Of a stretch of 64,000 bases of DNA, positions 1,415 to 60,648 are shown one piece after another. How positions within the stretch are numbered: position 1 is the stretch's first letter; every line of letters starts with the position of its first letter. Origin of the DNA: Thiomicrorhabdus aquaedulcis (lineage in GTDB: Bacteria > Pseudomonadota > Gammaproteobacteria > Thiomicrospirales > Thiomicrospiraceae); assembly GCF_004001325.1 (NCBI RefSeq), contig NZ_AP018722.1, positions 1,612,001-1,676,000 on the forward strand, given 5' to 3'. A program made the position numbers and the translations under genes. The notes under the pieces were generated by a model. It was not told where the DNA came from. It saw nothing but the letters and a program-made list of their open reading frames with translations, and made no database searches.

Positions 1415-2337
1415 GAGGGGTCATTAGGGTTAGAAGAGTTAGCAGAGTTAGCAGAGTTAGAAGGATTAGAAAGGTCTGCGAGTTTAAGGGTATCAGGCGG
1501 TGTATGCGTTAAGGTATACACCACCGCAGCGTTCCACATGACAATAAACCACACCAAATACAGCCACATTAAAAACAGCGGCACACTGGCAAACGCGCCA
1601 TATATTAAATCGTAGGTAGGAAACCAACCTATGTATAACGCAAAACCAGTTTTTAATAGTTCAAGTTGCACCGTGGCCAACAGAGCGCCTATAAAAGCGG
1701 CTTTGGCGCTTACAAAGACCACTGGCACAAACTTATACAACACCATAAAACCCAACAAACTAAATATAAACGGCAACAGTTGCATGCCAAAGGTAAACTT
1801 TTCAAGCATGGGCATAGTGTCTACAAGCCAAGGCAACGCTAAAATAGTTGAGCTGGTAAGCAAGCTCAACCCCAACAGCAAGGGGCCTAAAATGCTCACT
1901 CCTAAATAATTCAACAACCCAACCCACCATTTGCGTTTAACGGGACTGTCCCATAAGCCATTCAGTTTTTGGTCTATTTTCCACAACAACATTAAGGTGG
2001 TCAGTAGCATTATCACCAGGCCTGGTCCTTTCAATAAAACCGCTTGTTGAGAAAACTGCATTAAATAAACTTCAATCATAGGCTGCGAATCGGGCATTAA
2101 ATTGTGTACCACTTGCTCCATTACCAGCGCTTCAAAATTGGCAAAATAAGGAGAAACCGAAAACAAGCTTAACATCACCGCCAACATAGGCACTACGCCC
2201 AACAAAGTGGTGTACGCCAAAATAGCCACGGCATCAAAGCCTTTGCTTTGTCTAAAGCGCACCCATACTCGTTTCCACAAAGTAAAATGACCTAAGCGTT
2301 TAAACTCAATGGGTGGCGACTTAACCGACTCAAACAT
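1405..2337 (-). CDS. yihY: YihY/BrkB family inner-membrane protein
   Basis: A 310-residue polytopic membrane protein of the YihY (UPF0761) family, once misnamed RNase BN. About six hydrophobic segments occupy residues 35-285, with the family's TLLGVVPMLAVMLSLFSVSPYF segment near the N-terminus and the FVPVVFVSAKAAFIGALLA segment near residue 205. Its molecular function is not settled. The C-terminal tail is a low-complexity Ser/Asn/Pro/Ala stretch encoded by 9-bp tandem repeats (about 1428-1475) that run up to the start of the overlapping permease gene. The first base of the gene overlaps the last of the DJ-1 family gene, so all four minus-strand genes here look like one operon. Confidence 0.85.
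   Translation of the reverse strand: MFESVKSPPIEFKRLGHFTLWKRVWVRFRQSKGFDAVAILAYTTLLGVVPMLAVMLSLFSVSPYFANFEALVMEQVVHNLMPDSQPMIEVYLMQFSQQAVLLKGPGLVIMLLTTLMLLWKIDQKLNGLWDSPVKRKWWVGLLNYLGVSILGPLLLGLSLLTSSTILALPWLVDTMPMLEKFTFGMQLLPFIFSLLGFMVLYKFVPVVFVSAKAAFIGALLATVQLELLKTGFALYIGWFPTYDLIYGAFASVPLFLMWLYLVWFIVMWNAAVVYTLTHTPPDTLKLADLSNPSNSANSANSSNPNDPSCA
1428..1475. repeat. 9-bp tandem repeat (GAGTTAGCA type) at the yihY/permease junction
   Basis: About five imperfect copies of a 9-base unit (gagttagca, gagttagaa, ggattagaa and similar). They encode the Ser/Asn-rich tail of YihY and end just upstream of the permease start codon. The unit length is a multiple of three, so copy-number change would not break yihY. 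Confidence 0.7.
2015..2026. repeat. Palindrome ACCAGGCCTGGT (exact) inside yihY
   Basis: Exact copy of the window-wide 12-bp palindrome, read within yihY as part of the codons for KGPGLV. Confidence 0.9.
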
Positions 2338-2888
2338 TAACGCTGCAATCCTTGCTCGACACCGGTGCGAACCGCCTTATTGGTAAGCCGCTCCAACAAC
2401 AGCAATGCAAAATCTATTGCCGTACCTGGCCCACGAGAGGTAATCACATTACCGTCCTCAACCACCGCCGCATTAACAAAGCGCATGCCTGCCCCTGGTT
2501 GCTGCTCAATCACACCTGGGTAACTGGTGGCTTGCTTGCCATCGAGTAAACCGGCATGCACCAACACTTTTGGCGCGGCGCAAATGGCCGCTACATAATG
2601 CCCCTGCGCCACGGTGCGTTGCAATAAGGTAATCACACGCGAGTCCTGTTGCAAATAATCGGCACCAGGCAAACCGCCGGGTAACACCACCATGTCAAAC
2701 ACTTGGTGCTCAACTGCCGCCAACGTGGTGTCCGCCAGTAATCGCACGCCTCGGCTGGCGGTGATCACTAAGTTATCATCCAAACTGGCACTCAACACCT
2801 CTACTCCACCGCGCACTAAAATGTCCATAATGGTCACGGCTTCTAGTTCTTCGCACCCTTGTGCTAAAGGAATTAATACTCGTGTCAT
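2337..2888 (-). CDS. yajL: DJ-1/PfpI family protein, YajL-like
   Basis: A 183-residue cytoplasmic protein of the DJ-1/ThiJ/PfpI superfamily. The conserved acidic residue is in AQGCEELEAVTIMDIL near residue 16, and the nucleophile-elbow cysteine is in YVAAICAAPKVL around residue 103, the motif of the YajL/DJ-1 branch. Members act in oxidative and carbonyl stress protection; whether as a chaperone, a glyoxalase or a deglycase is disputed. A strong ribosome-binding site (AAGGGG) lies about 6 bases upstream of the ATG. A hairpin element begins 17 bases upstream of the start. It probably opens the operon containing yihY and the ABC transporter genes. Confidence 0.85.
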   Translation of the reverse strand: MTRVLIPLAQGCEELEAVTIMDILVRGGVEVLSASLDDNLVITASRGVRLLADTTLAAVEHQVFDMVVLPGGLPGADYLQQDSRVITLLQRTVAQGHYVAAICAAPKVLVHAGLLDGKQATSYPGVIEQQPGAGMRFVNAAVVEDGNVITSRGPGTAIDFALLLLERLTNKAVRTGVEQGLQR

Positions 2889-2904: not shown

Positions 2905-3063
2905 GAGACCTTTGCACGAGTCAAGGCACGGTTAAAAATGGCTAAAATTTACCTGATTTTTGTTGAAAACCTTGCGAATAGCCAGCTATTCACTGCGTTT
3001 TTCGCCGCAATCAGGCAAATTTTATCTCATTTTTTCCTCGCACCTCACTCGTGCAAAGGTCTC
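2905..3063. mobile_element. Hairpin MITE-like element, copy 1 (159 bp)
   Basis: Terminal inverted repeats GAGACCTTTGCACGAGT / ACTCGTGCAAAGGTCTC bound a long imperfect palindrome whose centre is GAATAGCCAGCTATTC. It is flanked by AAATA on both sides, a likely 5-bp target duplication. It carries no open reading frame of note and lies 17 bases upstream of the DJ-1 gene start. This element and the next terminator fill the 353-base gap between ctpA and the DJ-1 gene. Confidence 0.85.
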
Positions 3064-6861: not shown

Positions 6862-6874
6862 CTGGGTGTTTATA

Positions 6875-8685
6875 ATGAAAAACCATACTATTAAAACGGC
6901 ATGGCTGCTTGGCGTGTGGTTAACCTGCCTGCCCTACTTAGGCATACAAGCAAACCAAGTAAATCAAACCAATCAAATTACTCAGCCGCAACCGCTTCAA
7001 CTTCGCTTGCAAAATATCCTGTCGCAACCCCCCCAAACCTTAACGGGTAAACCCACCTACCTTAACGCCAATCAATTGGCTAATTTACAAGACTTTTATG
7101 CCGCACGCGCATATCAACTGGCTTGGACTGCTGAAGACTACCAGGCCTGGTCAAACCCGCTTTTTGAGGCATTTAAACTGGCCGCACACCACGGATTAAA
7201 CCCCAACCATCCGCTGTACCATCAAGAGCACTTAAACGCACTCATCAACCAATCGACATTACATAGGTCGAGCCTAGACCAAGAAAACACGCTCTTACGC
7301 GACCTATGGCTCAGCAGTGCGTTTATGTCTTTAAGTCAACATTTGGTGCAGGGTGTCGCTCCTGAGCTGGGGGCAAATAAGATTCACTCAACCCTTTCCC
7401 CGCGTGCGTTTAATGCGCCGCAATTTCTTGAAAAAACATTACGACAACGCCCTATCAAACTGACACACGCGTTAGAATCTTTAGCGCCCAAACATCAAGC
7501 GTACCTAAATCTTCAGAAAGCTTTGGCGTTTTATAAAACTCTTTCGCACAACAACGCTTGGCTCACAGAGCCTAACGCCTATATTAACCCCGAGAACGTT
7601 AGGCAACGTCTTATGCTCACAGGCGACTACACAAAAAACTAACCAGGCCTGGTCAAAGCGTGCAAAACAACATTGCGATGAGTTGGCAATGGGCAGATGA
7701 AACAGAAGATATGAATCAATCCTCGGTCGTCACGACAACAGAACCCCCAAAAGAAGACCATCCAATAGACGACTCAATCGAGCGCAAAGCCAGTCTTGAC
7801 CAAGCCATTCGCACCTTTCAACAGCGTCATCACATCAACGAGGAAGGTGTGCTGGGTCTAAAAACCCGCGCCCAGCTGGCGCTAAGTGTGCCTGAAATTA
7901 TAGCGAGCATTCGCACCAATCTAGAACGCTGGCGATGGTTTCAGCACCTACCCACTGAACTCAATCAACAGTATATTGAGGTTAACATTGCCAACTTCTC
8001 TTTACGCTATATACACGATGCGCAAAATTTTTCGATGAAAGCCGTTGTGGGTACTTTGCAGCGTCAAACGCCCATGATGGAAGCCAGCCTAAACCACCTG
8101 GTATTTAACCCCTACTGGCGCATTCCTAAAACCATTTTGGTTCAAGACATATTGCCTAAGCTTAAAAAAGACCTTAATTATTTAAACCAGCACAACATAA
8201 AAATTTTTAACCTAAACGACCCCCAAGAACGCCAACCTCTTGATCCCAACAGCATTGACTGGAAATCTATGTCCGCTCAGGGCATTTTAAAGTACCGCTT
8301 CAGGCAAGACGCAGGTGCAACAAACGCATTGGGCGCCATTAAATTTATGTTTCCTAATAACCAAGATATTTACATTCACGATACCCCTGTGCGCTCAACT
8401 TTTGCGCGAACAACCCGTTTAGCGAGTTCAGGGTGCATTCGTGCCGAAAAACCCAAAGAGTTAGCGTTTCACATCCTTAACCGCAATCAATCACCCACAA
8501 CCCAAGCCCTTGTAAAAAATTATCTTCAATCCAATCAACAGCACGTCGTTTGGCTTAAAGACCCTATACCGGTTTATCTCACCTATCAAACGGTCTGGGC
8601 AGACGAATCTGGACGGATTTTTTCACGACCTGATGTGTACAAATACGACACTAAGCTATTGGATTTATTCAGAAATCAACTATAA
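6875..8685 (+). CDS. ldtD: LdtD-like L,D-transpeptidase, interrupted by a one-base frameshift at an A AAA AAC site
   Basis: A periplasmic YkuD-fold enzyme that would make 3-3 cross-links in peptidoglycan. The first part (stop at 7640-7642) has a signal peptide and the N-terminal LdtD-type region ending VRQRLMLTGDY. The second part has the peptidoglycan-binding repeat (AIRTFQQRHHINEEGVLGLKT) and the catalytic core with IHDTP and SSGCIRAEKP, the Cys/His/Arg motif. One extra A in the A6 run at 7633-7638 joins both into about 603 residues, close to E. coli LdtD at 615. The run is also an in-frame slippery heptamer followed at once by a stop and a palindrome. ATG 6875 is preferred over GTG 6866. 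The ycbK gene follows, as in E. coli. Confidence 0.85.
7140..7151. repeat. Palindrome ACCAGGCCTGGT (exact) inside ldtD
   Basis: Exact copy, read in frame as Tyr-Gln-Ala-Trp-Ser (YQAWS). Confidence 0.9.
7642..7653. repeat. Palindrome ACCAGGCCTGGT (exact) just after the ldtD frameshift site
   Basis: Exact copy beginning at the last base of the zero-frame stop codon and three bases after the slippery run. Only 491 bases separate it from the previous copy. Confidence 0.9.
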
Positions 8686-9379: not shown

Positions 9380-11233
9380 TTATTCGACCGTGACGGATTT
9401 AGCCAGATTTCTAGGCTGATCCACATCGGTGCCTTTAATTAAGGCAACATGGTAGCTTAATAATTGCAACGGAATGTTAAAGGTAATAGGGGCGGTAATG
9501 CGCCCAACATTGGTGGTGGCTTTAATGACTTTAAAGCCCGGCCCTGATTGCACATTGGACTTTTCATCTTCAAACACAATCATTTGTCCACCGCGTGCAT
9601 TAACCTCTTGCAGATTCGATTTTAGTTTTTCTAACAAATCGTCGTGCGGTGCAATCGCAACAACCGGAATATTTTCATCAATTAACGCCAAAGGCCCATG
9701 CTTTAACTCACCTGCTGGATACGCTTCGGCGTGAATGTAGCTAATCTCTTTTAGCTTAAGCGCGCCTTCCATCGCAATGGGGTACATGGTGCCGCGGCCT
9801 AAAAACAGCGCACTGCTTTTATCGGCAAATTGCTTCGCAATCTCCATAATTTGGTCTTCGTTGGCCAGCGCACTTTTGATCAGGCCTGGTAACTTTTGCA
9901 AACCCAAAACAATAATATTTTCACGTTCTTCACTTATTAAGCCTTGGGTTTTGCCCACGCACGTTAACAACAACGCCAACGACACCAATTGCGTCGTAAA
10001 CGCTTTGGTGCTGGCCACGCCGATTTCGGGGCCAGCATGGGTTAAAAAGGTTAAGTCCGACTCACGCGTTAAGCTCGATTCGGCCACATTGCAAATGGTC
10101 AGCGTAGGAATGTTTTTAGCCTTTTTAAGACGTTTAATTTGCTGTAACGCCGCCAAGGTATCCGCGGTTTCACCCGACTGGCTAATGCTGACAAACAACG
10201 TATTGTCTTGCACAACCGGATTGCGATAACGGTATTCGCTGGCCACTTCGACCTGACAGGGCATACCAATAATGTCTTCAAACCAATACTTAGCCACCAA
10301 TCCAGAATGGTAACTGGTACCACATGCCACAATTTGCACCTGTGTAATGGTGTTAAACAACGCCTCGGCTTGATGACCAAACGCCGAAACCAACACATGT
10401 TCTTGGCTAATGCGCCCTTCTAAGGTATCAATGACCGCCTGTGGCTGCTCAAAAATCTCTTTGTGCATGTAATGACGGTGTTCGCCCAGCTCGACCGCAT
10501 GCGAACTTAAGGTAGAAGTTTTAATAAGCCGTTCTACGACCTCACCTTCGGCGTTAAAAATACACACATCGTCGCGCGTAATTTTTGCAATATCACCCTC
10601 TTCTAAAAACATAAAACGTTGCGTAACCGGCAAAAGAGCCGACACATCAGAGGCAATAAAGTGTTCACCAATCCCCACGCCAATAACTAACGGACTGCCT
10701 TTGCGGGCAACCACAAGAGTATCTGGCTCATTAATAGCAATAACCCCCAAGGCGTAAGCGCCTTTAAAGCCTTTAATGGCGGTTAATACTGCATTAAATA
10801 AATCATGGCCATCGCTTAAGTGCTTATGAATGCAATGTGCGACCACTTCGGTGTCGGTTTCAGAAGTAAACCGATACCCTTGTGCGAGTTGTAATGTTTT
10901 AAGTTCGGCGTAGTTTTCAATAATGCCATTGTGCACCACAGCCACTTGGTTGTTGCAAATATGCGGATGCGCATTGTGCTCGGCCGGAACACCATGCGTG
11001 GCCCAACGGGTATGTGCAATGCCAATTTGACCAGAAAAAACGGTGGGACTACCTTGAATTTTTTCGTCTAAACTTTTGATTTTTCCTAAAGAGCGAATGC
11101 GCGAAAGCTGCTGCTGATTGTCCAATACGGCAATGCCAGAAGAGTCGTACCCCCGATACTCTAATCGGCGCAATCCTTCTAACAAAATAGGCACAATATT
11201 ACGCTCGCCCACACCGCCTACAATTCCGCACAT
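9380..11233 (-). CDS. glmS: Glutamine-fructose-6-phosphate aminotransferase (isomerizing)
   Basis: Makes glucosamine-6-phosphate from fructose-6-phosphate and glutamine, the first step to UDP-GlcNAc for cell wall and lipid A. The start is set at 11233 because the N-terminus MCGIVGGVGERN exposes the catalytic Cys after Met removal; the longer 631-residue frame adds 14 residues that cannot belong. The glutaminase domain (about 1-240) includes RWATHG and HNGIIENY. Two SIS domains follow with CGTSYHSG and SQSGETADT, and the C-terminus is PRNLAKSVTVE, the family signature. At 617 residues it has the usual length. No glmS ribozyme is expected in this group and none is visible. Confidence 0.96.
   Translation of the reverse strand: MCGIVGGVGERNIVPILLEGLRRLEYRGYDSSGIAVLDNQQQLSRIRSLGKIKSLDEKIQGSPTVFSGQIGIAHTRWATHGVPAEHNAHPHICNNQVAVVHNGIIENYAELKTLQLAQGYRFTSETDTEVVAHCIHKHLSDGHDLFNAVLTAIKGFKGAYALGVIAINEPDTLVVARKGSPLVIGVGIGEHFIASDVSALLPVTQRFMFLEEGDIAKITRDDVCIFNAEGEVVERLIKTSTLSSHAVELGEHRHYMHKEIFEQPQAVIDTLEGRISQEHVLVSAFGHQAEALFNTITQVQIVACGTSYHSGLVAKYWFEDIIGMPCQVEVASEYRYRNPVVQDNTLFVSISQSGETADTLAALQQIKRLKKAKNIPTLTICNVAESSLTRESDLTFLTHAGPEIGVASTKAFTTQLVSLALLLTCVGKTQGLISEERENIIVLGLQKLPGLIKSALANEDQIMEIAKQFADKSSALFLGRGTMYPIAMEGALKLKEISYIHAEAYPAGELKHGPLALIDENIPVVAIAPHDDLLEKLKSNLQEVNARGGQMIVFEDEKSNVQSGPGFKVIKATTNVGRITAPITFNIPLQLLSYHVALIKGTDVDQPRNLAKSVTVE
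9879..9890. repeat. Palindrome variant (one mismatch) inside glmS
   Basis: ATCAGGCCTGGT, 11 of 12 bases matching; encodes part of KLPGLIKS on the minus strand. Confidence 0.7.
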
Positions 11234-11710: not shown

Positions 11711-14203
11711 TTAAGCCTCAGGTGAAACTGGCGTGAGTTTCCAAATGTCTTGATTGTATTCGAGCATAGTGCGGTCGGTTGAAAAGACCCCACTGCGTGC
11801 TGAGTTGATGATACTCATGCGCACCCATTCTTCACGATTTTGATAAGCCAAAGCGGCCTTTTCTTGCGCGGTAATGTAACTGCCAAAATCGGCCAATGTC
11901 ATCCAAGGGTCACTCGGGCTTTTAAGCGAGTTTAATATGTCGTTAAAAATTCCGGGTTCAAACTGGCTAAAGTGACCACTTTCTAATAAACCCATTACCG
12001 CCTGTAAATTATGGCTTTCATTAATGTACCCTTGCGGATAATAATGATGACGCAACGCTTCTACATCAGGTGTATGCAAGCCAAACAAAAAGAAGTTTTC
12101 ATCGCCAACGGCTTCACGAATTTCGACGTTTGCGCCGTCCAACGTACCAATGGTTAAGGCACCGTTCATCATAAACTTCATATTGCCTGTGCCAGAAGCC
12201 TCTTTACCGGCGGTTGAAATTTGCTCGGACAAATCAGTTCCGGGACAAATAACCTCCATAGCCGACACACGATAATTTGGAAAAAACACCACTTTAAGTT
12301 TATCGCCCACATCAGGGTCAGCGTTAACCACTTGCGCCACGTTATTGATTAACTTAATAATGTTTTTGGCCATCGCATAACCCGGTGCCGCTTTGCCACC
12401 AAAAATAACACTGCGATTGGTCCAATTATCGGTATCACCACGTTTAATGCGCGAGTACAAATGGATTACATGCAATACATTTAATAGCTGACGCTTGTAT
12501 TCGTGAATACGTTTAACTTGAACATCAAACAACGATTCGATATTAAGCACGACACCCGTTTCTTTTTGAACCATATCGGCTAAAGCTTGTTTATTAGCTT
12601 GTTTAACGTCATACCAAGCCTGGGCAAATACAGCATCGGTGGCTAAAGGTTCAATTTTGGCCAATTGAGTGAGTTCAGTAATCCATCCCTCACCAATTTT
12701 GGTTTTTAGCAATGCACGTAATTTAGGATTGCAACCGGCCAACCAACGACGTTGAGTTACCCCGTTGGTTTTGTTATTAAATTTTTCAGGCCACAGTTGA
12801 TAAAAATCGTTAAACAAACCTTCTTTTAACAGCTGAGAATGCAACGCTGCCACACCATTAACCGAATGACTGCCGACAATGGCCAAATACGCCATGCAGA
12901 CGTTATTGTGCTCATCAATAATGGACAAACGACGTTGACGCTGTAAATCGGCAGGCCACTTCATGGCCACTTGCGTTAAAAAGCGTCGATTAATTTCATA
13001 AATAATTTCTAATGGACGCGGCAATAACTTTTGAAACAAGCCAATCGACCATTTCTCAAGCGCCTCGGGCAATAAGGTGTGATTGGTGTACGCCATGGTC
13101 TGTGTAGTGATTGACCAGGCCTGGTCCCAAGGCATGCGCTCTTTATCTACCAATAAGCGCATTAATTCGGCTATCGCCAAACTCGGGTGCGTATCGTTAA
13201 GCTGAAAGGCATTAAATTGCGCAAAATCGGTAAAGTCTTGGTATTTGGTTTTCCATTGGGTCACCACATCTTGCAAACTGGCCGACACTAAAAAGTATTG
13301 CTGCTTTAGACGCAACTCTTTACCGTTTTCACTGCTGTCATTGGGGTAAAGCACCATAGTAATATTTTCAGCAGTGGCTTTTTGCGCCACCGCTTCGTGA
13401 TACGAACCGGCGTTAAATTGCGATAAATTAAACCCTTCTTGCGCGGTCGCCGACCACAAACGTAAGGTGTTGACCGTGTTGTTTTTAAACCCAGGAATGG
13501 GTACGTCAAACGGCACAGCTTCAACTACCTCTGCGTGTTCCCAATGGGCATACACTTGCCCGCTTTGCGGGTCAACATATTGTCGTGACTCGCCGCCAAA
13601 TTTAATGACTTGGGTGTATTCAGCTCGCTGCACTTCCCACGGATAAGGCCCTGCACCCAACCAATGATCAGGTTCTTCAATTTGAAAACCGTTTTGAATC
13701 ATCTGTCTAAACATGCCGTATTCATAACGCAAACCGTACCCCATTACCGGCAGTTGCAATGTGGCACAACTGTCCATAAAACACGCGGCTAAACGTCCTA
13801 AACCGCCGTTTCCTAAACCAGCATCACGCTCGGCCGATTCAATTTCTTCTATGTTCAAGCCCAAATCGTACATGGCTTGAGTGGTTTCGTTTTCAATTCC
13901 CAAGTTTAATAAATTATTGGTAAGCGAACGACCAATTAAAAACTCCATTGATAAATAATAAGCTTTTTTATGTTTATTGTTGTTATACGCTTCCCAAGTA
14001 TTTTTCCAACGGGTCATTAAACGATCACGAGTCGCATACGATAACGCTTTAAATAAATAGTAGTCTTCAGAAGTAATATCACGACCCAAGGTGTGGCATA
14101 AATACTTTAAAAAATCGATTTCAATGTCGTCTTTTTCCATGCCGATATGGTGCAACATTTCGTTAATTACATCCATTCGTTTGGCCTCGGTTGATGTGGG
14201 CAT
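11711..14203 (-). CDS. glgP: Glycogen/maltodextrin phosphorylase
   Basis: An 830-residue GT35 phosphorylase that releases glucose-1-phosphate from alpha-1,4-glucan ends. The N-terminal domain has KKAYYLSMEFLIGRSL and GNGGLGRLAACFMDS. The pyridoxal-phosphate lysine is in EASGTGNMKFMMNGALTIGTLDGAN, about residues 660-685, and the domain with RRLSIIDEHNNVCMA and KTNGVTQRRWL precedes it. Length matches the family. The stop of glgA and the start of glgP are adjacent (14204/14203), so the two are coupled. It is the last gene of the glycogen cluster and has a terminator some 300 bases beyond. Confidence 0.96.
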   Translation of the reverse strand: MPTSTEAKRMDVINEMLHHIGMEKDDIEIDFLKYLCHTLGRDITSEDYYLFKALSYATRDRLMTRWKNTWEAYNNNKHKKAYYLSMEFLIGRSLTNNLLNLGIENETTQAMYDLGLNIEEIESAERDAGLGNGGLGRLAACFMDSCATLQLPVMGYGLRYEYGMFRQMIQNGFQIEEPDHWLGAGPYPWEVQRAEYTQVIKFGGESRQYVDPQSGQVYAHWEHAEVVEAVPFDVPIPGFKNNTVNTLRLWSATAQEGFNLSQFNAGSYHEAVAQKATAENITMVLYPNDSSENGKELRLKQQYFLVSASLQDVVTQWKTKYQDFTDFAQFNAFQLNDTHPSLAIAELMRLLVDKERMPWDQAWSITTQTMAYTNHTLLPEALEKWSIGLFQKLLPRPLEIIYEINRRFLTQVAMKWPADLQRQRRLSIIDEHNNVCMAYLAIVGSHSVNGVAALHSQLLKEGLFNDFYQLWPEKFNNKTNGVTQRRWLAGCNPKLRALLKTKIGEGWITELTQLAKIEPLATDAVFAQAWYDVKQANKQALADMVQKETGVVLNIESLFDVQVKRIHEYKRQLLNVLHVIHLYSRIKRGDTDNWTNRSVIFGGKAAPGYAMAKNIIKLINNVAQVVNADPDVGDKLKVVFFPNYRVSAMEVICPGTDLSEQISTAGKEASGTGNMKFMMNGALTIGTLDGANVEIREAVGDENFFLFGLHTPDVEALRHHYYPQGYINESHNLQAVMGLLESGHFSQFEPGIFNDILNSLKSPSDPWMTLADFGSYITAQEKAALAYQNREEWVRMSIINSARSGVFSTDRTMLEYNQDIWKLTPVSPEA
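13114..13125. repeat. Palindrome ACCAGGCCTGGT (exact) inside glgP
   Basis: Exact copy within the 14-base GACCAGGCCTGGTC; read as Asp-Gln-Ala-Trp-Ser (DQAWS). Confidence 0.9.
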
Positions 14204-23079: not shown

Positions 23080-23091
23080 ACCAGGCCTGGT
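23080..23091. repeat. Palindrome ACCAGGCCTGGT (exact) between glk and glgC
   Basis: Exact copy in non-coding DNA, 23 bases past the glk stop codon. No T run follows, so it is not a terminator. Confidence 0.9.
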
Positions 23092-28510: not shown

Positions 28511-28522
28511 ACCAGGCCTGGT
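28511..28522. repeat. Palindrome ACCAGGCCTGGT (exact) between kdsD and waaA
   Basis: Exact intergenic copy, 60 bases after the kdsD stop. Confidence 0.9.
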
Positions 28523-43917: not shown

Positions 43918-44076
43918 GAGACCTTTGCACGAGAGGGGTACGAGAAAAAAATGAGGAAAAATTTACCTGATTGAGGCGGGAAACGCAGTGAATAGCTGGC
44001 TATTCACAAGTTTTCCAACGAAAAGCAGAGAAATTTTAACCATTTTTGGCCGTACATCCACTCGTGCAAAGGTCTC
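43918..44076. mobile_element. Hairpin MITE-like element, copy 5 (159 bp)
   Basis: Orientation as copy 3, flanked by TATTA on both sides. It ends 66 bases upstream of the antiporter ATG. Confidence 0.9.
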
Positions 44077-47528: not shown

Positions 47529-49385
47529 TTAGTGACCGTACAGCGTCAACGACCAATTAACTAACTTGCCCAAACCTGTTCCATTGGTACTGTTGTCCAA
47601 ATCGCGCACGGTCACTGTCCAATTGCCATTTAGAGCCTCGCCGTAAAACGCATGGCTAATAAGCATAAGGTTGTTCATGTCGTAATGCGGCAAATAGGCG
47701 TTAAACGGGGTAAGCACAATACTTTGCGTGCCCGACGGCGAGGTTAAAAGAATTTGATAATCGCTTAGGTCAATATTATGGGCAACATTGCCTTCTGTAT
47801 TGCTGTCGCGCCCAACAATGCTGAGCGTTAACAGCACGCTTTCGGCGGTTAGGGTTGAATTAACCGTGGTGATTTTGCTTAAACCTGCGGCGTTAAAATC
47901 GGGGATTTCGTTGTCAGTGCTTAAAGAAAAAACCGGTGTGCTGACGGTTTGCATGGCCAGCAATGGGCTGTAATTAGTGCGCGCCAGGGTAATGGCAGCG
48001 TCGACATTAAGCGCCCCAAAGCCATAAGCATTGCTGTACTTTATGCCCGCATTATTGGTGACCCAACCATTTTCTAACACCACGCTTGTGCTGTTTACCG
48101 CAAGGGTTTTTGAGCTTAAATCGGGATCAATTTGGCGAGCTGTGCTGGCCAGTACATGCTTAACGTCGCGCCAAGTTAAATTAGGATTGGCCTCTAACAA
48201 CAAAGCCGCCGCGCCACTGACCATGGCAGTAGATGAAGACGTGCCGTTAAAGCGTGAAAAATAATTGCACGACTCATTGCCAGTGCCTTGCGCTCCATCG
48301 TCAAAGGGCACGATGCCGTACGGCGTGTTGGTTCGACTGTAACCAATCGTGCAACCACTTTGATCCGTGGTGACTAAAGTTGGACTTTCAACACCAAACT
48401 CGCCACCCGGCGCCGATAACCAGAGTGCCGAACCCGTGTTGGAATAGCTTGCTCGGCGATCACTGGCGTTAAACGCCCCCACCACCATTTGAAACGGTGT
48501 GGCGTGTTCGGTTTCCATATTGACGTTGTAACAGGTCATACCATTAGCGCAACTGCCAGAGTCGCTGTAAAATTCATTACCAGCTGCTTTAACGTACACC
48601 GCGCCTTTTAACGCGCGAAGATTATTTGTACCCCATTCCAATGCGTCCATGATGGTTTGGTAATACGTCAACTCAGTGCCCTCAGGAACATAATCAGGAT
48701 TACGACCATAGCTTTTATTAAATACATCGATTTGGGTAGAGGTAAGTCCTACAAACTGATCAGCCGACTCTTTGTAACCCAAAGCCGCTAACTCTTCGTT
48801 AAATTCTTGCGACGCTAAAAAATTAAAACCATGCAACTCAACGCTTGGGGCAACGCCCCAAATTCCTAGGCTGTTTCCGCCACGCGCACCGGATAACCCC
48901 GCTACGCTTGTGCCGTGATCACCATCAACAAACGTTGACGTTGGGTCAAATAGACTTTTACCATTATTAGAAAAATTATATGAACCATTGAGCACCACAT
49001 TGGGGCTTAAATCTTCATGGCCAATCTCCATACCTTCATCGATAATTGCCAAATGGACACCATCGCCGGTAAAGCCTTGCGCGTAAGCGTCTACCCCTTC
49101 ACCCGCACCAAACACGTTAATATCAGCACCCGGCACACCACCGGTTCCGTCATACACCAACGCAGCTTGGCCGCTGTTATACAACGACCATTGGTGTTCA
49201 ATAAACGGATCATTGATGGCCGTAATAGGCGTATCGGGTGGCGGTGGCGGCGTTGAAGAACCTCCTCCTCCCCCGCCGCCACAAGCCGATAGCAACCCTA
49301 GCATCCCTAGTAACCCAATGGCGATAATGCGTTTAACGGTGTTATTTAAAGAGTCACCAGGCCTTGTGATGTTTATTTGCTTCAT
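47529..49385 (-). CDS. Kexin-like S8 serine protease lipoprotein with C-terminal P domain
   Basis: A 618-residue protease. ATG 49385 is chosen: AAGGAG lies 8 bases upstream, and it overlaps the gspN stop as TAATG; the frame opens 22 codons earlier. The lipobox is LLSAC (Cys35), followed by a poly-Gly and poly-Pro linker and then directly by DPFIEHQWSLYNSGQ, the start of the catalytic domain, so no prodomain is present in cis. The triad is Asp116 (IIDEG), His157 (VDGDHGTSVAG) and Ser383 (NGTSSSTAMVSG), with oxyanion Asn270 (KAAGNEF). A P domain of about 145 residues ends NWSLTLYGH. Coupling to the gsp operon suggests it is a type II secretion substrate. Confidence 0.9.
   Translation of the reverse strand: MKQINITRPGDSLNNTVKRIIAIGLLGMLGLLSACGGGGGGGSSTPPPPPDTPITAINDPFIEHQWSLYNSGQAALVYDGTGGVPGADINVFGAGEGVDAYAQGFTGDGVHLAIIDEGMEIGHEDLSPNVVLNGSYNFSNNGKSLFDPTSTFVDGDHGTSVAGLSGARGGNSLGIWGVAPSVELHGFNFLASQEFNEELAALGYKESADQFVGLTSTQIDVFNKSYGRNPDYVPEGTELTYYQTIMDALEWGTNNLRALKGAVYVKAAGNEFYSDSGSCANGMTCYNVNMETEHATPFQMVVGAFNASDRRASYSNTGSALWLSAPGGEFGVESPTLVTTDQSGCTIGYSRTNTPYGIVPFDDGAQGTGNESCNYFSRFNGTSSSTAMVSGAAALLLEANPNLTWRDVKHVLASTARQIDPDLSSKTLAVNSTSVVLENGWVTNNAGIKYSNAYGFGALNVDAAITLARTNYSPLLAMQTVSTPVFSLSTDNEIPDFNAAGLSKITTVNSTLTAESVLLTLSIVGRDSNTEGNVAHNIDLSDYQILLTSPSGTQSIVLTPFNAYLPHYDMNNLMLISHAFYGEALNGNWTVTVRDLDNSTNGTGLGKLVNWSLTLYGH
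49356..49367. repeat. Palindrome variant (one mismatch) in the protease signal region
   Basis: ACCAGGCCTTGT; read within ITRPGDS near the N-terminus. Confidence 0.6.
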
Positions 49386-50329: not shown

Positions 50330-50877
50330 TAACGCGCACCTGGTGCGTTGGTGCCGGCATTGCGCAAGGCATCTGCTAACACGTCAAACTGCACTTCGGC
50401 CTGGGTTAAGCCGGGCGAAATGGGAGTAATATCTAAGCGACTCGCCACCAAGCCTTGTTGCTCAAGAGCGGCCAACCAGGCAAATAAGCGCGGAGCATCT
50501 ACTTGAGCAAACCGGACTTTAACCCCTTGTGCGGTAGGCTCAATACCTTGGGCGGCGCGCAATAAATTTTGCACACGCAGCGTTTGTTGCACGCTGTCGA
50601 TTAAGGCGGTTTTACTGTTAAACGCAAGTGGGTCTGTAAGCACCGTTGCCCTTCCCGTTGCACTTTTTTCGACTATTTTAGGGGCTTGTTCGTTAAGCCA
50701 CTGCCAATCGGCTTGAGATTTTTGCAAGGCTGCATGCGCTTGTTGTTGAGCATTTTGAATAGGCAACCACAGCAGTTGATAAAACATAAATCCCGTTAAA
50801 AATACCGCCAAACCTATTAATAATCGGCGTTCGCGCACCGCTAAAGCTGACCAGGCCTGGTTAATTTGCATCCACAT
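50329..50877 (-). CDS. gspM: Type II secretion system protein GspM
   Basis: A 182-residue inner-membrane platform protein. A hydrophobic segment at about residues 19-38 follows a short cytoplasmic part (ALAVRERRLLIGLAVFLTGF is typical of GspM), and the periplasmic part has a ferredoxin-like fold type (ARLFAWLAALEQQGLVASRLDI). It recruits GspL to the platform. It overlaps gspL by 17 bases. Confidence 0.9.
   Translation of the reverse strand: MWMQINQAWSALAVRERRLLIGLAVFLTGFMFYQLLWLPIQNAQQQAHAALQKSQADWQWLNEQAPKIVEKSATGRATVLTDPLAFNSKTALIDSVQQTLRVQNLLRAAQGIEPTAQGVKVRFAQVDAPRLFAWLAALEQQGLVASRLDITPISPGLTQAEVQFDVLADALRNAGTNAPGAR
50850..50861. repeat. Palindrome ACCAGGCCTGGT (exact) at the gspL/gspM junction
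   Basis: Exact copy; read in gspM as NQAWSAL and ending at the gspL stop. Confidence 0.9.
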
Positions 50878-52138
50878 ACAACACTCCTTCTGCCAAGGTT
50901 GCGGTGACGTTTTTAAGCTCTAAACTAAACGTTATATTAGCCATGTTAGACTTATTAGACATATTGGCAGTACCGGGCGTTAGGACGTCTGCCGCCTCAC
51001 TCACACTCACTAACGTTTGCAACGCCGCGGCATTGGCGGCACTGACTTGCACGCTCATACGCTGACCATTTTTAACCGGTTGCAGCGCTATTTTTTTAAG
51101 CGTAACCTCGGGGTTTTTAAGCACTGTGATTTCTAGCGCGCGCATCATCTGCATCGGTGAGGTTTGGGTACGGTTGGTTGGTTGGTCTTTTAAGCGACTG
51201 TTGGTTTGAGCCCGCACGTTGACCACGCGCTTTACATCTGGAAACAACTGCTTAAACAGCGCGTGAGTTTGGGTTTGATACACATCTGCTTGCGCGGCTA
51301 ATCGCTGGGTCTGCCAATGTGTCGCCAACATGGACGTAACCAGCATAAGCGCCACTAAACCGCCCGCCCAACGCAAACGTTTAACGCCCGCGCCCCATAC
51401 TGATTGGGCTTTAAAATCGCCCTTGGTTAAACTTAATGCCGACAGGACACTGGCCGATGTAAATGTTGGTTCAACCGCCTGCAGTGTCTTATTTTGATGT
51501 TCTGGCAAATGCCTAATTTGCTCAAACCAGGCATGGTCGCACGCAAAACCGCTGTAGAAACCGGTGCGCACAGTGTGTAAAGTAGATTGGTTGGTCGTAT
51601 AAACCAACCAGGCCTGGTCAGTCGATTTAAGATTGGCTGGATTGTTTGTTGGGTTAAACGGCCAATCCAATGCAAAACAATCTGGCACCAACTGGGCGTG
51701 TTCGAGTCCTGCGGCGTTTAAACCGGCTTGCCAGGTAAGCATTTTTTGGCGTTCGACCACGGCACAAAACACCGTATTGCCTGCATGGGTATCGCGCGCA
51801 AAGCTCACGATATGAAACTGCTCAATGGGTTGCGACAAACTCTCTTCTAACGCATAAGGCAACGCCGCTTGCCAATCGGCTTTACGTTTTCCTGGCACGC
51901 TCACTTGGGTTAACAGTACCGACTGAGTGGGAACCCATACGGTGACCACCGCGCTTTTTAAAACGCCCTGTGCCTTAAGTTCTGCCAATAATGCGTCCAC
52001 CTCACTGGGCAACGTGACGGTACGCGCCAACGATTCCACTACCAGCGTGTCGTCTTGAGTAAATTTAACGCTCACGGGCGTTATGGCTGTCCCGCGTTTA
52101 GGGGGCTGCGCGGCTTTGGGTAACACGTTCTGTAACAC
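50861..52138 (-). CDS. gspL: Type II secretion system protein GspL
   Basis: A 425-residue bitopic protein. The cytoplasmic actin-like domain (about 20-235) binds the GspE ATPase; the membrane segment is at about 245-262 (AGGLVALMLVTSMLATHW) and a periplasmic ferredoxin-like domain follows. The start at 52138 is a GTG overlapping gspK by 41 bases; a GTG at 52075 would remove the overlap, and neither has a strong ribosome-binding site. Confidence 0.9.
   Translation of the reverse strand: MLQNVLPKAAQPPKRGTAITPVSVKFTQDDTLVVESLARTVTLPSEVDALLAELKAQGVLKSAVVTVWVPTQSVLLTQVSVPGKRKADWQAALPYALEESLSQPIEQFHIVSFARDTHAGNTVFCAVVERQKMLTWQAGLNAAGLEHAQLVPDCFALDWPFNPTNNPANLKSTDQAWLVYTTNQSTLHTVRTGFYSGFACDHAWFEQIRHLPEHQNKTLQAVEPTFTSASVLSALSLTKGDFKAQSVWGAGVKRLRWAGGLVALMLVTSMLATHWQTQRLAAQADVYQTQTHALFKQLFPDVKRVVNVRAQTNSRLKDQPTNRTQTSPMQMMRALEITVLKNPEVTLKKIALQPVKNGQRMSVQVSAANAAALQTLVSVSEAADVLTPGTANMSNKSNMANITFSLELKNVTATLAEGVLYVDAN
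51526..51537. repeat. Palindrome variant (one mismatch) inside gspL
   Basis: ACCAGGCATGGT; read as DHAWFEQ. The mismatch falls in the central GGCC. Confidence 0.6.
51606..51617. repeat. Palindrome ACCAGGCCTGGT (exact) inside gspL
   Basis: Exact copy, 80 bases from the previous variant; read as TDQAWLVY. Confidence 0.9.
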
Positions 52139-54477: not shown

Positions 54478-55010
54478 AGCGACGTCTCAAAGTTTAACAA
54501 ACCATCCCACACTACCGTGGTCACCCCGGCAACCTTACCGCCTTTTGCATTGGAGGTTAATTGAGTTTGTCCGTCCAACTGTATCTTAACCTCGCCGGGT
54601 AAAACCTCGCCACTGGGCCAAAACAGCCAACCGGCTTGGGGCAATTGGTTTTGTTGGGCAAAGGTTAAATCGGTGTTCCATTCCACGCTTAGGCCTGCTT
54701 GCCAAGGCAAAAAAGCCACTTGGGATGACACCGACCAGGCCTGGTCAGTGAGTACATACGTGGTTAAACCGTCTTGGGTGGGTGCCATTAAATACAGCCT
54801 TTGCTCAAACGCCGCGTAATCACTGACTAAACGCAATGCACTTTTAAGCTGACCTTGCTGCGTGTTTAAAATAGCCGAATCACTGGGTCGCAACGACAGC
54901 ATGCCAACGCTTAAGACCACTGCCATAATCACCACCACCACCATCAACTCAATTAAAGTAAACCCACGTTGGCGGTGTACTTTAGCCGATGCGACATTGA
55001 CCCAGTTCAT
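54474..55010 (-). CDS. gspH: Type II secretion minor pseudopilin GspH
   Basis: A 178-residue minor pseudopilin with [24 protein letters not shown] at about 15-38, and the GspH-type globular domain. Its start is preceded by 9-bp repeats TAATAAGGT that each carry an AAGG ribosome-binding site. It holds a palindrome copy. Confidence 0.9.
   Translation of the reverse strand: MNWVNVASAKVHRQRGFTLIELMVVVVIMAVVLSVGMLSLRPSDSAILNTQQGQLKSALRLVSDYAAFEQRLYLMAPTQDGLTTYVLTDQAWSVSSQVAFLPWQAGLSVEWNTDLTFAQQNQLPQAGWLFWPSGEVLPGEVKIQLDGQTQLTSNAKGGKVAGVTTVVWDGLLNFETSL
54734..54745. repeat. Palindrome ACCAGGCCTGGT (exact) inside gspH
   Basis: Exact copy within GACCAGGCCTGGTC; read as TDQAWSVS. Confidence 0.9.
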
Positions 55011-55588: not shown

Positions 55589-55600
55589 ACCAGGCCTGGT
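55589..55600. repeat. Palindrome ACCAGGCCTGGT (exact) between gspF and gspG
   Basis: Exact intergenic copy, preceded by TTTTG and followed by TAA; no terminator T run. Confidence 0.9.
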
Positions 55601-55713: not shown

Positions 55714-56955
55714 TTAACCCACCATTTGATTCATTTCAAAAATCGGCATCATAATCGCCAACACAATGGTGAGTACCACCCCGCCCATAATAATAATCAG
55801 CATGGGTTCTAAAATACTGACCAATGTGGCGGCGGCGGTTTCAACCGACAACTCGTAATGCTTTGCGCCTTTTAACAGCATGTTGTCCAGCTGGCCTTTG
55901 CCCTCGCCCGTTTTAACCAAATTAAGCAACAACGGCGGAAAAAACCCCGCATCGGTCATGGCCGTGCCCACCGTTTTACCTTCACGCACTTGGGTCACCA
56001 TTTTTAACACCGCTTGTTTCATGGGGTCAAGGGTCATCACCTCGGCCGAAATGGTCAGCGCATCTTTAATGGGCACGCCACTGGACAACAACACCCCCAA
56101 GGTACGCGCCCAACGCGCGGTGGCGGCGTAAATTAAAAAGCGTTTTAAGCCAGGGGCGTTCATCATTAGGGTGTGCACCTTAAAGCGCCATTTGGCTTGA
56201 CGCATCAACCAAATACTCCACAACCAAAGTGCCACAGCCGCCACCAACATAAGCGGCCATTGGTTCTGTACAAACTCGCTCACGCTCAATAACCCTTGGG
56301 TTAACGGCGGCAGGGCTTGTTGCATGTTGTCAAACACGCTCACCACTTTGGGCACCACATACACCATTAAAAAAAACACAATCAATACCGCCACCACCAC
56401 CATTAAGGCGGGGTAAATCAAGGCGGTTTTCATCTTTTTATTCAGCTGATCGCGCTGTTCTACCGCATCCGCTAAACGCGACAATACTTTGTCTAAATGG
56501 CCACTCTCTTCACCGGCTTGAATGGTGGCAATAATGTCGTGCGACACTTTGGCCGGAGCCATTTCCATCGCCGTGGCTAACGAATACCCCTCGGACACCC
56601 GCGTGTGCAAACTGCTTAAAAAGCGCGTTAAGGTTTTAGATTCAGCCTGACCGGCCAACGATTTAAGCGCCTGATTTAGCGGAATCCCCGCATCCAACAA
56701 GGTGTAAAGTTCGCGGGTAAACAGCGCCAGTTCATCGACCTTAATTTTGGCACCAAACCAGGCCTGGTGAGTTTGTTGAGCGCGCCCACTGGCTTGCCCT
56801 GCCGACTTTTTAGAGCCGTCTAAGGCACGAATTTCAATCGGACTTAAACCTTGATCACGCAACATTTGTCTAATTTGACGCTCACCATCGCCCTCCAACA
56901 CCCCTTTGGTGGTTTGACCTTGCTGGGTTAAGGCTCTGTATTCAAATACCGCCAT
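55714..56955 (-). CDS. gspF: Type II secretion inner-membrane platform protein GspF
   Basis: A 413-residue polytopic platform protein with two T2SSF domains (about 70-195 and 275-397) and three membrane segments (about 172-195, 222-245, 380-402). Family motifs: MAVFEYRALTQQGQTTKGVLEGD at the start and GEESGHLDKVLSRLA, GEGKGQLDNMLLKGA in the two domains. Usual length. It lies 49 bases after gspE. Confidence 0.95.
   Translation of the reverse strand: MAVFEYRALTQQGQTTKGVLEGDGERQIRQMLRDQGLSPIEIRALDGSKKSAGQASGRAQQTHQAWFGAKIKVDELALFTRELYTLLDAGIPLNQALKSLAGQAESKTLTRFLSSLHTRVSEGYSLATAMEMAPAKVSHDIIATIQAGEESGHLDKVLSRLADAVEQRDQLNKKMKTALIYPALMVVVAVLIVFFLMVYVVPKVVSVFDNMQQALPPLTQGLLSVSEFVQNQWPLMLVAAVALWLWSIWLMRQAKWRFKVHTLMMNAPGLKRFLIYAATARWARTLGVLLSSGVPIKDALTISAEVMTLDPMKQAVLKMVTQVREGKTVGTAMTDAGFFPPLLLNLVKTGEGKGQLDNMLLKGAKHYELSVETAAATLVSILEPMLIIIMGGVVLTIVLAIMMPIFEMNQMVG
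56757..56768. repeat. Palindrome ACCAGGCCTGGT (exact) inside gspF
   Basis: Exact copy; read as HQAWFG. Confidence 0.9.
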
Positions 56956-58462: not shown

Positions 58463-60648
58463 AACCCTAACAACTCATCGGTGGTCATGGGGAAAATTAA
58501 GCGATTAGCGGATTTGTTGGCCGGCTCAACGTCCGTTGCTGTTTTTGACTCTGAGTTTGCATTGCCGTTTGCATTGGCATTGGCTTTGACATCAGCATCA
58601 AATGGGGTAGCGGGTTCACTGGCTTTCCATTGCTCCAAAGTTGGCAAACGTGGGCGCAAGCCTTGCAAATAAGTTGAGTCTTTGGTGCGTAACAACTCGT
58701 CTTGCTCATCGTAAACGTAGCTGTACTTTTTATTGCTGTAATAGTCACTCATGGTGTTGTCCCTAATAATAACAGGCCGTAAAAACACCATTAAATTGAC
58801 TTTTTCGCGCTTATTCTGGGTCGAACTAAACAAAGCGCCCAGGCCTGGTATATCGCCCAAACCTGGAACTTTAGAATCCACCAACGTTTCTTTTTCGTTG
58901 ATTAAGCCACCCAACACCACCATATTGCCGTCACCCACAATTACGCGGGTTTTAATTTGACGCTTGGTGGTTTGAATATCGACTGCTTCGCCTTTAGGCA
59001 AGACGTCCGACACCTCTTGGTCAATGTCCAAATAGATTTCATTGCCTTCGTTAATTTGTGGCTTAACCTTAAGTTTTAACCCGACGTTTTTACGCTCAAT
59101 GGTGGTGAACGGATTGGTTGATGTCGTGGTACCACTGGTGTAACTACCGGTCTGAAACGGTACTTCGCGCCCCACGACAATTTCGGCTTCTTCGTTGTCC
59201 AGGGTTAAAATAGAGGGCGTGGCCAACACGTTAGACGACGAATCGCTGTTTAAAGCTCTAATAAAACCACCCCAACCAGAATCGCCACTGGCCGACACTT
59301 CACCGCCGGCAAATGACAAACCAGTGCCAATCACTTTTGACTGCTCAAGCGGATTACCCGCGTTACCAATTAAATTAGGAATGGCGCCCGAAAAATTTAA
59401 AAGCCCTACGCCATTTTGACCTGCAAACCCCCATTCAACCCCTAAATCAAGGGCTTTGTCAGCCGAAATTTCCACAAAAATGGCTTCAATTAACACTTGT
59501 GCGCGTCGAATATCTAACTGCTTAATCACGCCTTTTAACGCTGTCACTACCGCCGTAGGTGCGCTGACAATAACGGCGTTCATACGTTCATCGGCTTCGA
59601 TGCTAATATTTTCTTTAAGCGATTTGTCGCTCATAATGGCCGTGTTAGCCGCTTGCACGGTCGAGGTAGTGGTGGTTGTGCCATCCGCCGCAGTTACATT
59701 GGTCACACTGGGCGTAGTCAATTCGTCACCCGACCCCTCTCCCGACCCCATGAGCACTCGATTGCCCGCAATTTTTTGCAGCACTGGCACAATTTCGGCG
59801 GCTTTGGCGTAGCGTAAATAAATCACCTGCACCCGACCTTCGGAGGCCACTTTAATGTCTAAATCGGCAATTAAGGCACGCAGCTGAATCCGTTTTTGCG
59901 CGTCACCGGTCAAAATAACTCGGTTAGATCGGCCATCAAAACTTACTTTTACCTCATTACCGCCCTCGCCTTTAGGAATAAGCCCTTTAAGCGTTTTTGC
60001 CAGCTCTTCGGCTGATGAATGCTCAACCGTGATAACCTCATAATTGCCACGCGTATCCACGTCAACGCGGCTTAACACGTCTTTAACCCGGCGAATATTG
60101 ACCACGGTGTCCGAAATAATTAATTTATTGCTTTCCGCCAGCGCCACCAAATGGCCTTCGCGCGCCACTAATGGACGCAGTATCGCCACCAATTTAGCCG
60201 CGTCTACATGGTTAACATTAACCACTTCGGTTACCCAAGATTCGTTATTGTCTTCAGCCGTGCGGTAGGGCATTTGATCACGCGCTAAATTGGCAGGTAA
60301 AATCTTAATCACCCCATCACCTGGCACCGCCACGTAACCGTGCACATTCAGCACAGCCAATAAGGTCTGATACAGGGCGGCTGGATCCATCGACTGTGGC
60401 GCAATTAAGGTCACTTTGCCTTTAACACGCGGGTCAATAATAAAATTGTAACCCGATATTTTTGACACCGCTTCAATCACCGTGGCAATTTCAACGTCTT
60501 TAAAGTTTTGATTAAGTTGCTCTTGCCCTTGTGCGGCCTGCACCACGTGCCCCAATACACTCATGTGCAATGCGGCCGCCAACACACCCATTTTGAGCCA
60601 TTGACCAGGCCTGGTCGGTGTGCGGGTAAAAAGTGTGTGAATTGTCAT
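58459..60648 (-). CDS. gspD: Type II secretion secretin GspD
   Basis: A 729-residue outer-membrane secretin. A signal peptide (ending VVQAAQG) is followed by N0-N3 domains (FKDVEIATVIEAVSKISGYNFIIDPRVKGKVTL; LRPLVAREGHLVALAESNKLIISDT; VIYLRYAKAAEIVPVL), then the secretin core with VPFQTGSYT and the motif LGDIPGLGALFSS. The C-terminal 60 residues are Ala/Asn/Lys-rich (KANANANGNANSESK). The N3 domain holds a Thr/Ser-rich loop (TNVTAADGTTTTTSTVQAAN). Confidence 0.95.
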   Translation of the reverse strand: MTIHTLFTRTPTRPGQWLKMGVLAAALHMSVLGHVVQAAQGQEQLNQNFKDVEIATVIEAVSKISGYNFIIDPRVKGKVTLIAPQSMDPAALYQTLLAVLNVHGYVAVPGDGVIKILPANLARDQMPYRTAEDNNESWVTEVVNVNHVDAAKLVAILRPLVAREGHLVALAESNKLIISDTVVNIRRVKDVLSRVDVDTRGNYEVITVEHSSAEELAKTLKGLIPKGEGGNEVKVSFDGRSNRVILTGDAQKRIQLRALIADLDIKVASEGRVQVIYLRYAKAAEIVPVLQKIAGNRVLMGSGEGSGDELTTPSVTNVTAADGTTTTTSTVQAANTAIMSDKSLKENISIEADERMNAVIVSAPTAVVTALKGVIKQLDIRRAQVLIEAIFVEISADKALDLGVEWGFAGQNGVGLLNFSGAIPNLIGNAGNPLEQSKVIGTGLSFAGGEVSASGDSGWGGFIRALNSDSSSNVLATPSILTLDNEEAEIVVGREVPFQTGSYTSGTTTSTNPFTTIERKNVGLKLKVKPQINEGNEIYLDIDQEVSDVLPKGEAVDIQTTKRQIKTRVIVGDGNMVVLGGLINEKETLVDSKVPGLGDIPGLGALFSSTQNKREKVNLMVFLRPVIIRDNTMSDYYSNKKYSYVYDEQDELLRTKDSTYLQGLRPRLPTLEQWKASEPATPFDADVKANANANGNANSESKTATDVEPANKSANRLIFPMTTDELLGL
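58838..58849. repeat. Palindrome variant (one mismatch) inside gspD
   Basis: CCCAGGCCTGGT; read as DIPGLGAL in the conserved secretin motif. Confidence 0.75.
60604..60615. repeat. Palindrome ACCAGGCCTGGT (exact) inside gspD
   Basis: Exact copy near the start of gspD; read as TRPGQWL in the signal region. Confidence 0.9.

Follow-up and report, generated by a model that had tools for sequence, protein, structure and literature searches.

What keeps one 12-bp palindrome so abundant in the DNA of this marine, sulfur-oxidising bacterium? The 64-kb window, the whole stretch of DNA analysed here, holds 16 exact and 9 one-mismatch copies of it. Copies with at most one mismatch are expected at a mean of 0.09 and a maximum of 1 (100 dinucleotide-preserving shuffles), and an order-3 Markov model predicts 0.006 exact copies. 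Thus, the over-representation proposed in the sequence-only reading is confirmed. The copy positions given there also stand, save that the copy placed at 51606 starts at 51607. The copies are as follows, with no strand assigned.

2015..2026, exact copy in an ORF (GPGLV frame)
7140..7151, exact copy in an ORF (QAW frame)
7642..7653, exact copy overlapping the end of ORF 6866-7642
9879..9890, one-mismatch copy in a glmS-like ORF
13114..13125, exact copy in a glycogen phosphorylase-like ORF
17234..17245, exact copy in a glycogen branching enzyme-like ORF
19326..19337, one-mismatch copy in an ORF
23080..23091, exact copy, intergenic
28511..28522, exact copy, intergenic
29031..29042, one-mismatch copy in an ORF
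31789..31800, one-mismatch copy in a xer-like recombinase ORF
31887..31898, one-mismatch copy in the same xer-like recombinase ORF as the 31789 copy
36830..36841, exact copy in an ORF
44753..44764, one-mismatch copy in an ORF
46630..46641, exact copy in a universal-stress-like ORF
47402..47413, exact copy in an ORF
49356..49367, one-mismatch copy in a subtilase-like ORF
50850..50861, exact copy in a gspM-like ORF
51526..51537, one-mismatch copy in a gspL-like ORF
51607..51618, exact copy in a gspL-like ORF
54734..54745, exact copy in a gspH-like ORF
55589..55600, exact copy, intergenic within the gsp cluster
56757..56768, exact copy in a variable segment of a gspF-like ORF
58838..58849, one-mismatch copy in a gspD-like ORF, in the second of two PGLG peptides
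60604..60615, exact copy near the start of a gspD-like ORF

The palindrome is not confined to the window. The whole genome (2,537,035 bases) holds 718 exact 12-mers, far above expectation, and none of the reversed word, and the core CAGGCCTG occurs 1106 times, or once per 2.3 kb, against a single copy of the reversed core. The layout is a dyad of two head-to-head half sites, ACCAGGCC. Across 181 cores the conserved motif extends beyond 12 bp, with flanks of G or A and then T (0.68) going outward, followed on both sides by A/T-rich positions.

Copies are found chromosome-wide, with 4-12 cores in each of 19 samples of 20 kb. Mapping of spacing and replichore position, suggested earlier, shows no visible trend in core density across these 19 samples, either by replichore or by distance from where the skew switches, and 100 consecutive copies are randomly spaced (CV 0.90 vs 0.99, sd 0.10). 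In 460 kb of the chromosome, 128 of 195 cores (66%) lie inside ORFs of at least 100 aa and 67 lie outside, where 11% of the sequence is found. For comparison, the accessible text of earlier work places 65% of the signals of H. influenzae and 35% of those of N. gonorrhoeae inside ORFs. The second contig (97 kb), judging by its size probably a plasmid, is depleted though not empty, with 7 cores in 94 kb vs 39.8 expected (P 2e-10). Close palindrome pairs (<70 bp) number 8 in this genome vs about 5.7 expected, and this excess is not clear.

Within the ORFs of the window the copies use all three reading frames, and, as noted earlier, they fall in coding and non-coding DNA and in unrelated genes. 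In a conserved gspD peptide the palindrome is a matter of codon choice, and the first gspD PGLG peptide is written with CAGGCCTG in 6 of 13 signal genomes and in 0 of 7 others. Because of the three frames, the unrelated genes, the gspD codon choice and the genome-wide occurrence, the proposal of a DNA-level signal is well supported. The copies originate by substitution; an excess of one-mismatch near misses, 45 vs 1.3 expected, is what such an origin should give. Insertion of a mobile or repeat element, like small palindromic elements or MITE ends, could also place many copies at unrelated sites and could yield the segments around the gspF site and the gspL 51607 site, in which many homologues are gapped. 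However, the alignment is gapless at the gspD site 58838 in 20 of 20 homologues and at the gspH site 54734 in 18 of 19, and neither this nor the gspD codon choice and the near misses fit spread by insertion, which we regard as highly improbable. Once present, palindrome positions are mostly retained in relatives at 72-75% DNA identity.

The count was extended, as had been proposed, to relatives, namely 60 family genomes of Thiomicrospira, Hydrogenovibrio and Thiomicrorhabdus relatives. CAGGCCTG is abundant in 31 of them (236-1173 copies each) and scarce in 29 (0-74 copies each), and some of the latter carry other repeated words. One genome (G023) has an alternative palindrome, ACCGGCCGGT, in 1025 copies. 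The non-palindromic word ACAGGCCGGGT occurs 503 times in G020 (253 and 250 by strand) and 293 times in G004 (143 and 150), without strand bias in these two draft genomes; four stretches of G020 contig C1 give 13:8. A fourth dialect, the asymmetric AAAATCTGCCAGG(T/C)TGGG, is found in G053, G055 and G057, and, less surely, a G-tract is a further signal among the genomes where CAGGCCTG is scarce. In G020, 10 of 32 sites (31%) lie inside ORFs, and 6 of 7 close pairs are inverted, intergenic and 21-25 bp apart, where 0.25 close neighbours are expected; the fourth dialect has one inverted pair (in G055) among 15 sites.

The dialects are mutually exclusive and clade-structured. On a tree of 27 labelled genomes, from which dialect d is absent, they need 4 changes, the fewest possible; dialects d and e were judged from sampled stretches. 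Counting words with at least 5 occurrences, we found no signal-like words in 80-126 kb each of G003, G011, G013, G014, G019, G024, G026 and G031, and seven genomes without a found signal, examined over the same lengths, group on the tree with G023. The top words of G024 resemble tRNA parts. For G001, G028, G029 and G032, the 11-57 kb available each are too short for a sound judgement. Some of the genomes appear to belong to cultured strains; going by inferred names, Thiomicrorhabdus arctica has the palindrome, T. cannonii and Hydrogenovibrio marinus have other dialects, and in T. heinhorstiae none was found.

Since the palindrome is carried by relatives or replaced in them by other words, it looks like a self-recognition tag for DNA uptake. 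We suggest that it is probably a DUS/USS-like signal for DNA uptake, in its local dialect. Three roles had been put forward from the sequence (uptake, a nucleoid protein and methylation), and uptake fits best, because the dialects are exclusive and follow the tree, the non-palindromic dialect forms inverted intergenic pairs and the second contig is depleted. Uptake, receptor and drive are what we infer from this pattern. Signal-bearing DNA would be favoured by a receptor on the cell surface, probably one of the minor pilins of a type IV pilus. Kin DNA would then be preferentially taken up and recombined, and copies would be made and kept chromosome-wide by substitution. The signal would mostly be a dyad of two ACCAGGCC half sites, and their head-to-head order would make it readable on either strand. 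The taste of the receptor may have shifted in some lineages, with all copies turned over to a new dialect or lost.

Such a site could be bound by a dimeric protein that organises the chromosome (nucleoid-associated, Noc- or SlmA-like) and whose specificity shifts between lineages. The dyad symmetry, A/T-rich flanks, conservation of position and depletion of the second contig all fit, yet the spacing is random and the 19 samples show no visible replichore or skew-switch trend. Two dialects are asymmetric, one of them shown to lack strand bias, and the lack of a signal-like word in the seven genomes grouped with G023 (80-126 kb each) is unexpected for a protein that organises the entire chromosome. 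Thus, we think this role unlikely. Strand balance bears also on a Chi-like recombination or KOPS-like segregation motif. Chi and KOPS motifs are asymmetric and polarised along the replichore. A genome-wide, over-represented motif is what they share with the present one, but the main signal here is palindromic and the asymmetric dialect ACAGGCCGGGT is balanced between the strands genome-wide, so that we see very little chance of such a function.

We also think it unlikely that an orphan DNA methyltransferase modifies the palindrome or its core and that methyl-directed repair, or a function of methylation, sustains its abundance, as may be envisaged for HIP1. The accessible text of Elhai on cyanobacteria (PMC4390886) describes a comparably abundant palindrome that has alternate forms, also palindromic, in relatives, and the genome studied here has one C5 methyltransferase match (C1:743279). 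Against this, two dialects are non-palindromic, and 10 of 25 signal-rich genomes at >=99% completeness have neither a C5 (PF00145) nor an N4/N6 (PF01555) match, in a survey of these two methyltransferase families. C5 matches occur in 7 of the 25 (one below cut-off) and N6_N4 matches in 11 (two below cut-off), compared with 7 and 5 of the 15 other genomes at this completeness. Because the presence of these two families does not track the signal, they were rejected as its determinant, and the methylation-linked site suggested earlier is weakened.

Candidates for the machinery of the proposed uptake were sought among competence and pilus genes. ComEC is present in 54 of 58 family genomes. Since it is present even where no signal was found (G003, G011, G013, G014, G019, G024 and G026), it does not discriminate, and we rejected it as the signal determinant; no ComEC was found in G004, a signal-bearing genome in 520 contigs. 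The prepilin family PF07963 was matched in 8 of 8 genomes searched. Among the matches listed, large pilins near a miaB-like gene occur in signal genomes and in G003, and no receptor candidate was singled out from the prepilins and pilin clusters of the 8 genomes. The GspH minor-pilin family PF12019 is too insensitive a marker (matches in 3 of 58 genomes), and PilY1 (PF05567) is uninformative, with 0 matches both here and in 14 controls.

To our knowledge, genome-wide uptake tags have been reported so far from two other bacterial families only. In the literature searched we found no report of ACCAGGCCTGGT or CAGGCCTG, nor of an uptake sequence in Thiomicrospira. Of two papers that bring together Thiomicrorhabdus and palindromes, one does so only in spelling out CRISPR. 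Wider searches did not return this signal among the matches listed, and among those listed for these genera none mentions natural transformation. Word finds for Thiomicrospira and AGGCCT gave nothing in the accessible text of PMC5217627 and PMC1852404. We put at about even chances the broader proposal that Thiomicrospiraceae are a third family, of separate origin, with genome-wide uptake signals. An ancestral palindrome would be recognised by a symmetric receptor or as a pair of half sites that overlap. Within the family, full sets numbering from several hundred up to a thousand copies would have been rewritten into asymmetric dialects, into another palindrome and perhaps into a homopolymeric G-tract, or else erased, with such differences reaching down to members of a single genus. 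If true, free-living sulfur oxidisers would make up this third family. Its palindromic signal, its several dialects and the close relatives in which no signal was found would offer a natural experiment on the origin of uptake signals, the replacement of whole copy sets and the receptor that reads them.

Among known systems, HIP1 and the alternate HIPs of cyanobacteria share with this signal an over-represented palindrome that other palindromes replace in some relatives. They differ in that HIP1 is accompanied by GATC and CGATCG methyltransferases (PMC4390886, accessible text), whereas here the C5 and N4/N6 families do not track the signal and some dialects are non-palindromic. DUS and USS are described as non-palindromic in the text accessible to us. 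Like them, the present signal is dispersed in hundreds to thousands of copies, many more than expected, and shows exclusive dialects that follow phylogeny (27 labelled genomes) and strand balance (two draft genomes). The USS of Pasteurellaceae, also Gammaproteobacteria, resemble it in joining a core, there of 9 nt, to A/T-rich regions, and their inverted repeats, which act as terminators, recall the inverted pairs of G020; they differ in having two types with the A/T-rich regions downstream, compared with four to five dialects here, two of them palindromic. From the DUS of Neisseriaceae it differs in family, in its perfectly palindromic main dialect with A/T-rich flanks on both sides, in a genus that includes genomes without a found signal and in that uptake is proposed here from the pattern of copies. 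It shares with DUS the hundreds to thousands of copies, the clade-structured dialects, the conserved inner core and the permissive intergenic sites. Inverted pairs, a reported feature of DUS genomes, are seen here in G020 and once in G055, but show no clear excess for the palindrome itself. Simonsiella muelleri has 1294 DUS occurrences arranged as overlapping dyads. With 718 exact copies and 1106 cores, the genome studied here lies towards the lower limit of the range for Neisseriaceae DUS dialects (943-5918 copies).

The palindrome ACCAGGCCTGGT occurs in the window 16 times exactly and nine times with one mismatch. These counts reproduce those of the sequence-only reading and are far above chance: shuffles predict 0.09 copies of at most one mismatch, and an order-3 Markov model predicts 0.006 exact ones. 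The copy positions listed in that reading all agree except 51606, for which the correct start is 51607. A genome-wide count, which it had proposed as a check, places copies beyond the window: the two contigs of Thiomicrorhabdus aquaedulcis (2,537,035 bases) hold 718 exact palindromes, with the reversed word absent, and have the 8-mer core CAGGCCTG 1106 times vs once for the reversed core.

In 460 kb of T. aquaedulcis DNA, there are 127 exact copies (0.05 expected), 45 with one mismatch (1.3 expected) and 38 with two (17.8 expected), while those with three or four are fewer than expected. The outer positions of the 12-mer are tolerant of mismatches and the inner positions hardly so: in 40 of the 45 one-mismatch copies the mismatch falls in the two outermost positions at either end, and in 5 it is internal. 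In a flank profile from 181 cores (444 kb), C (0.88) and A (0.87) adjoin the core. Farther out come a G or A position (0.37, 0.30) and a T (0.68), and beyond these the DNA is A/T-rich on both sides.

The copies had been said to lie in both coding and non-coding DNA, and this is the case, as 21 of the 25 window copies fall within ORFs of at least 150 aa and the rest outside. The window ORF set (53 found, three overlapping longer ORFs excluded) carries gene names, such as gspD-like, that are a reading of the translations and not a database result. All three reading frames are used (12, 7 and 2 copies), and the encoded peptides are mostly QAW, PGL or TRPG. Across 460 kb, ORFs of at least 100 aa take 128 of 195 cores but make up 89% of the DNA; thus, intergenic sites are enriched about three times. 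Nineteen chromosomal samples of 20 kb have 4-12 cores each, with no trend visible in core density relative to the skew switches, and the gaps among 100 consecutive exact copies (CV 0.90) are inside the random range. The second contig has 7 cores in 94 kb vs 39.8 expected. Conjugative elements hold few uptake sequences.

Other elements in the window are the following; the four MITE-like intergenic elements (about 157-184 bp) have inverted ends AGACCTTTGCACG and inner ATAGCCAGCTATT.

2906-3062: MITE-like element
19477-19633: MITE-like element
near 21651: MITE-like element, single end AGACCTTTGCACG
27291-27474: MITE-like element
34219-35570: hslU-like gene, divided over two reading frames around 34900
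39824-39880: short tandem array of ACATGTATTA units, immediately upstream of a thioredoxin-like ORF
43919-44075: MITE-like element

MITE-like ends also occur 17 times in 396 kb of other T. aquaedulcis DNA, and 5 times and once in stretches of two relatives, G016 and G030. The frame split in the hslU-like gene reflects a sequencing error or, alternatively, a disrupted gene. Among the matches listed, large proteins (about 450-570 aa) with a prepilin signature are found in sampled stretches L188, L189, L190, L191, L192, L194, L195 and L197; in these same matches, their C-terminal parts are often GDD/GND-type repeat-rich and a miaB-like gene is nearby in most of the loci.

Core counts for 60 genomes of this family, Thiomicrospiraceae, are 236-1173 in 31 and 0-74 in the other 29. 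Outside the family, 35 genomes of the same class each have at most one copy of the 12-mer and no more than 222 of the core; the genome with 222 has the reversed word 91 times. The details of the palindrome differ between core-bearing genomes. G008 has 1173 cores yet 38 exact 12-mers, its best word being AGCAGGCCTG, and G005, G018 and G025 have 653-900 cores yet 16-25 exact 12-mers.

Some relatives use another word, or dialect, in place of the palindrome. There are 1025 copies of ACCGGCCGGT in G023 and at most 15 in each of the other 59 family genomes. The non-palindromic ACAGGCCGGGT occurs 503 times in G020 and 293 times in G004, evenly on both strands, and at most 9 times in each of the other 58. 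Many G020 copies extend to AAAACTCAACAGGCCGGGTA, and of 7 close pairs there, 6 are intergenic inverted pairs spaced by 21-25 bp. A fourth dialect, AAAATCTGCCAGG(T/C)TGGG, is common to G053, G055 and G057; its part CTGCCAGG(T/C)TGGG is found 15 times in 149 kb of these three genomes, where G055 has the one inverted pair, and is not seen in the rest of the sampled genomes. A G-tract, GGGGGGGGA with A/T-rich DNA after it, has 27 copies in about 100 kb of G012, G017 and G022 and 12 more in about 94 kb of G028, G029 and G001, with 0 or 1 in each other sampled genome. The G-tract is a less secure case, since runs of a single base may arise in other ways. In G022, G017 and G012 it could be a further dialect or else a repeat with no link to the signal; G8 tracts with A/T-rich DNA after them lie in stretches L172, L173, L182, L168 and L169 of these three genomes, a few of them as inverted pairs. 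Eight genomes, sampled at 80-126 kb each, yielded no signal-like word: G003, G011, G013, G014, G019, G024, G026 and G031. Separately, 40 kb of G050 (L152 and L153) has 109 copies of ACGGATACCGAT, and 40 kb of G043 (L156 and L157) has 18 of CAGGCGGCTTAG; these may be a repetitive gene and a CRISPR-like array.

In a tree built from GspE, GspD and GspF of 29 genomes, 27 of them labelled (G-tract labels come from sampled stretches; neither G003 nor the fourth dialect is included), five dialect states require 4 changes, the minimum possible, vs an average of 11.8 for shuffled labels. G020, with its non-palindromic dialect, is nested among genomes that carry the palindrome. The G-tract genomes, four in all, fall in a single clade, and G023 clusters with seven genomes in which no signal was found. 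Since the palindrome is also present outside the genus, in G035, G033 and G036, it may be the ancestral signal, with the tree root and long branches unsure. If so, it drops to background copy number once upkeep ends, and the signal would thus be actively maintained.

The first of two PGLG peptides in gspD is VPGLG in 18 of 20 relatives; 6 of the 13 palindrome genomes, and none of the 7 others, spell it with CAGGCCTG. The signal sites at this peptide originated by substitution. The gspH window site lies in gap-free alignment in 18 of 19 homologues, the gspF site and the gspL site at 51607 lie within gapped segments, the 60604 site (gspD-like ORF) is alignable in two genomes only, and the gspM site yields no alignment rows. 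In twelve same-dialect pairings of homologous 20-kb stretches (72-75% identity; the genome sets overlap, so the pairings are not independent), 44 of 59 aligned cores are kept at the same place vs about 6.5 expected from the identical 8-mer share, with lows of 1/3 and 2/5 and a high of 5/5. Against no-signal genomes, 0 of 4 are conserved (two comparisons).

C5 methyltransferase family matches are present in 21 of 58 genomes and N4/N6 matches in 22 of 58. Among genomes at least 99% complete, the 25 signal-rich ones have C5 matches in 7, N4/N6 matches in 11 and neither in 10; the 15 others have C5 matches in 7 and N4/N6 matches in 5. These families do not track the signal. ComEC is found in 54 of 58 genomes and not found in G004, G031, G044 and G048. 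We favor a DNA uptake signal, in the sense that the palindrome would work like a DUS, not that it is a DUS. This is because the counts, intergenic share, strand balance and inverted pairs match DUS/USS properties, as do the second-contig depletion and the dialects, which follow clades and keep an inner part conserved. Counts, intergenic share, inverted pairs and dialects are among the DUS/USS properties described in PMC3630211, PMC12616744 and PMC1939737. A precedent for a palindromic signal is reported in PMC3630211, where DUS copies also occur in overlapping dyads, which may indicate dimer-based recognition.
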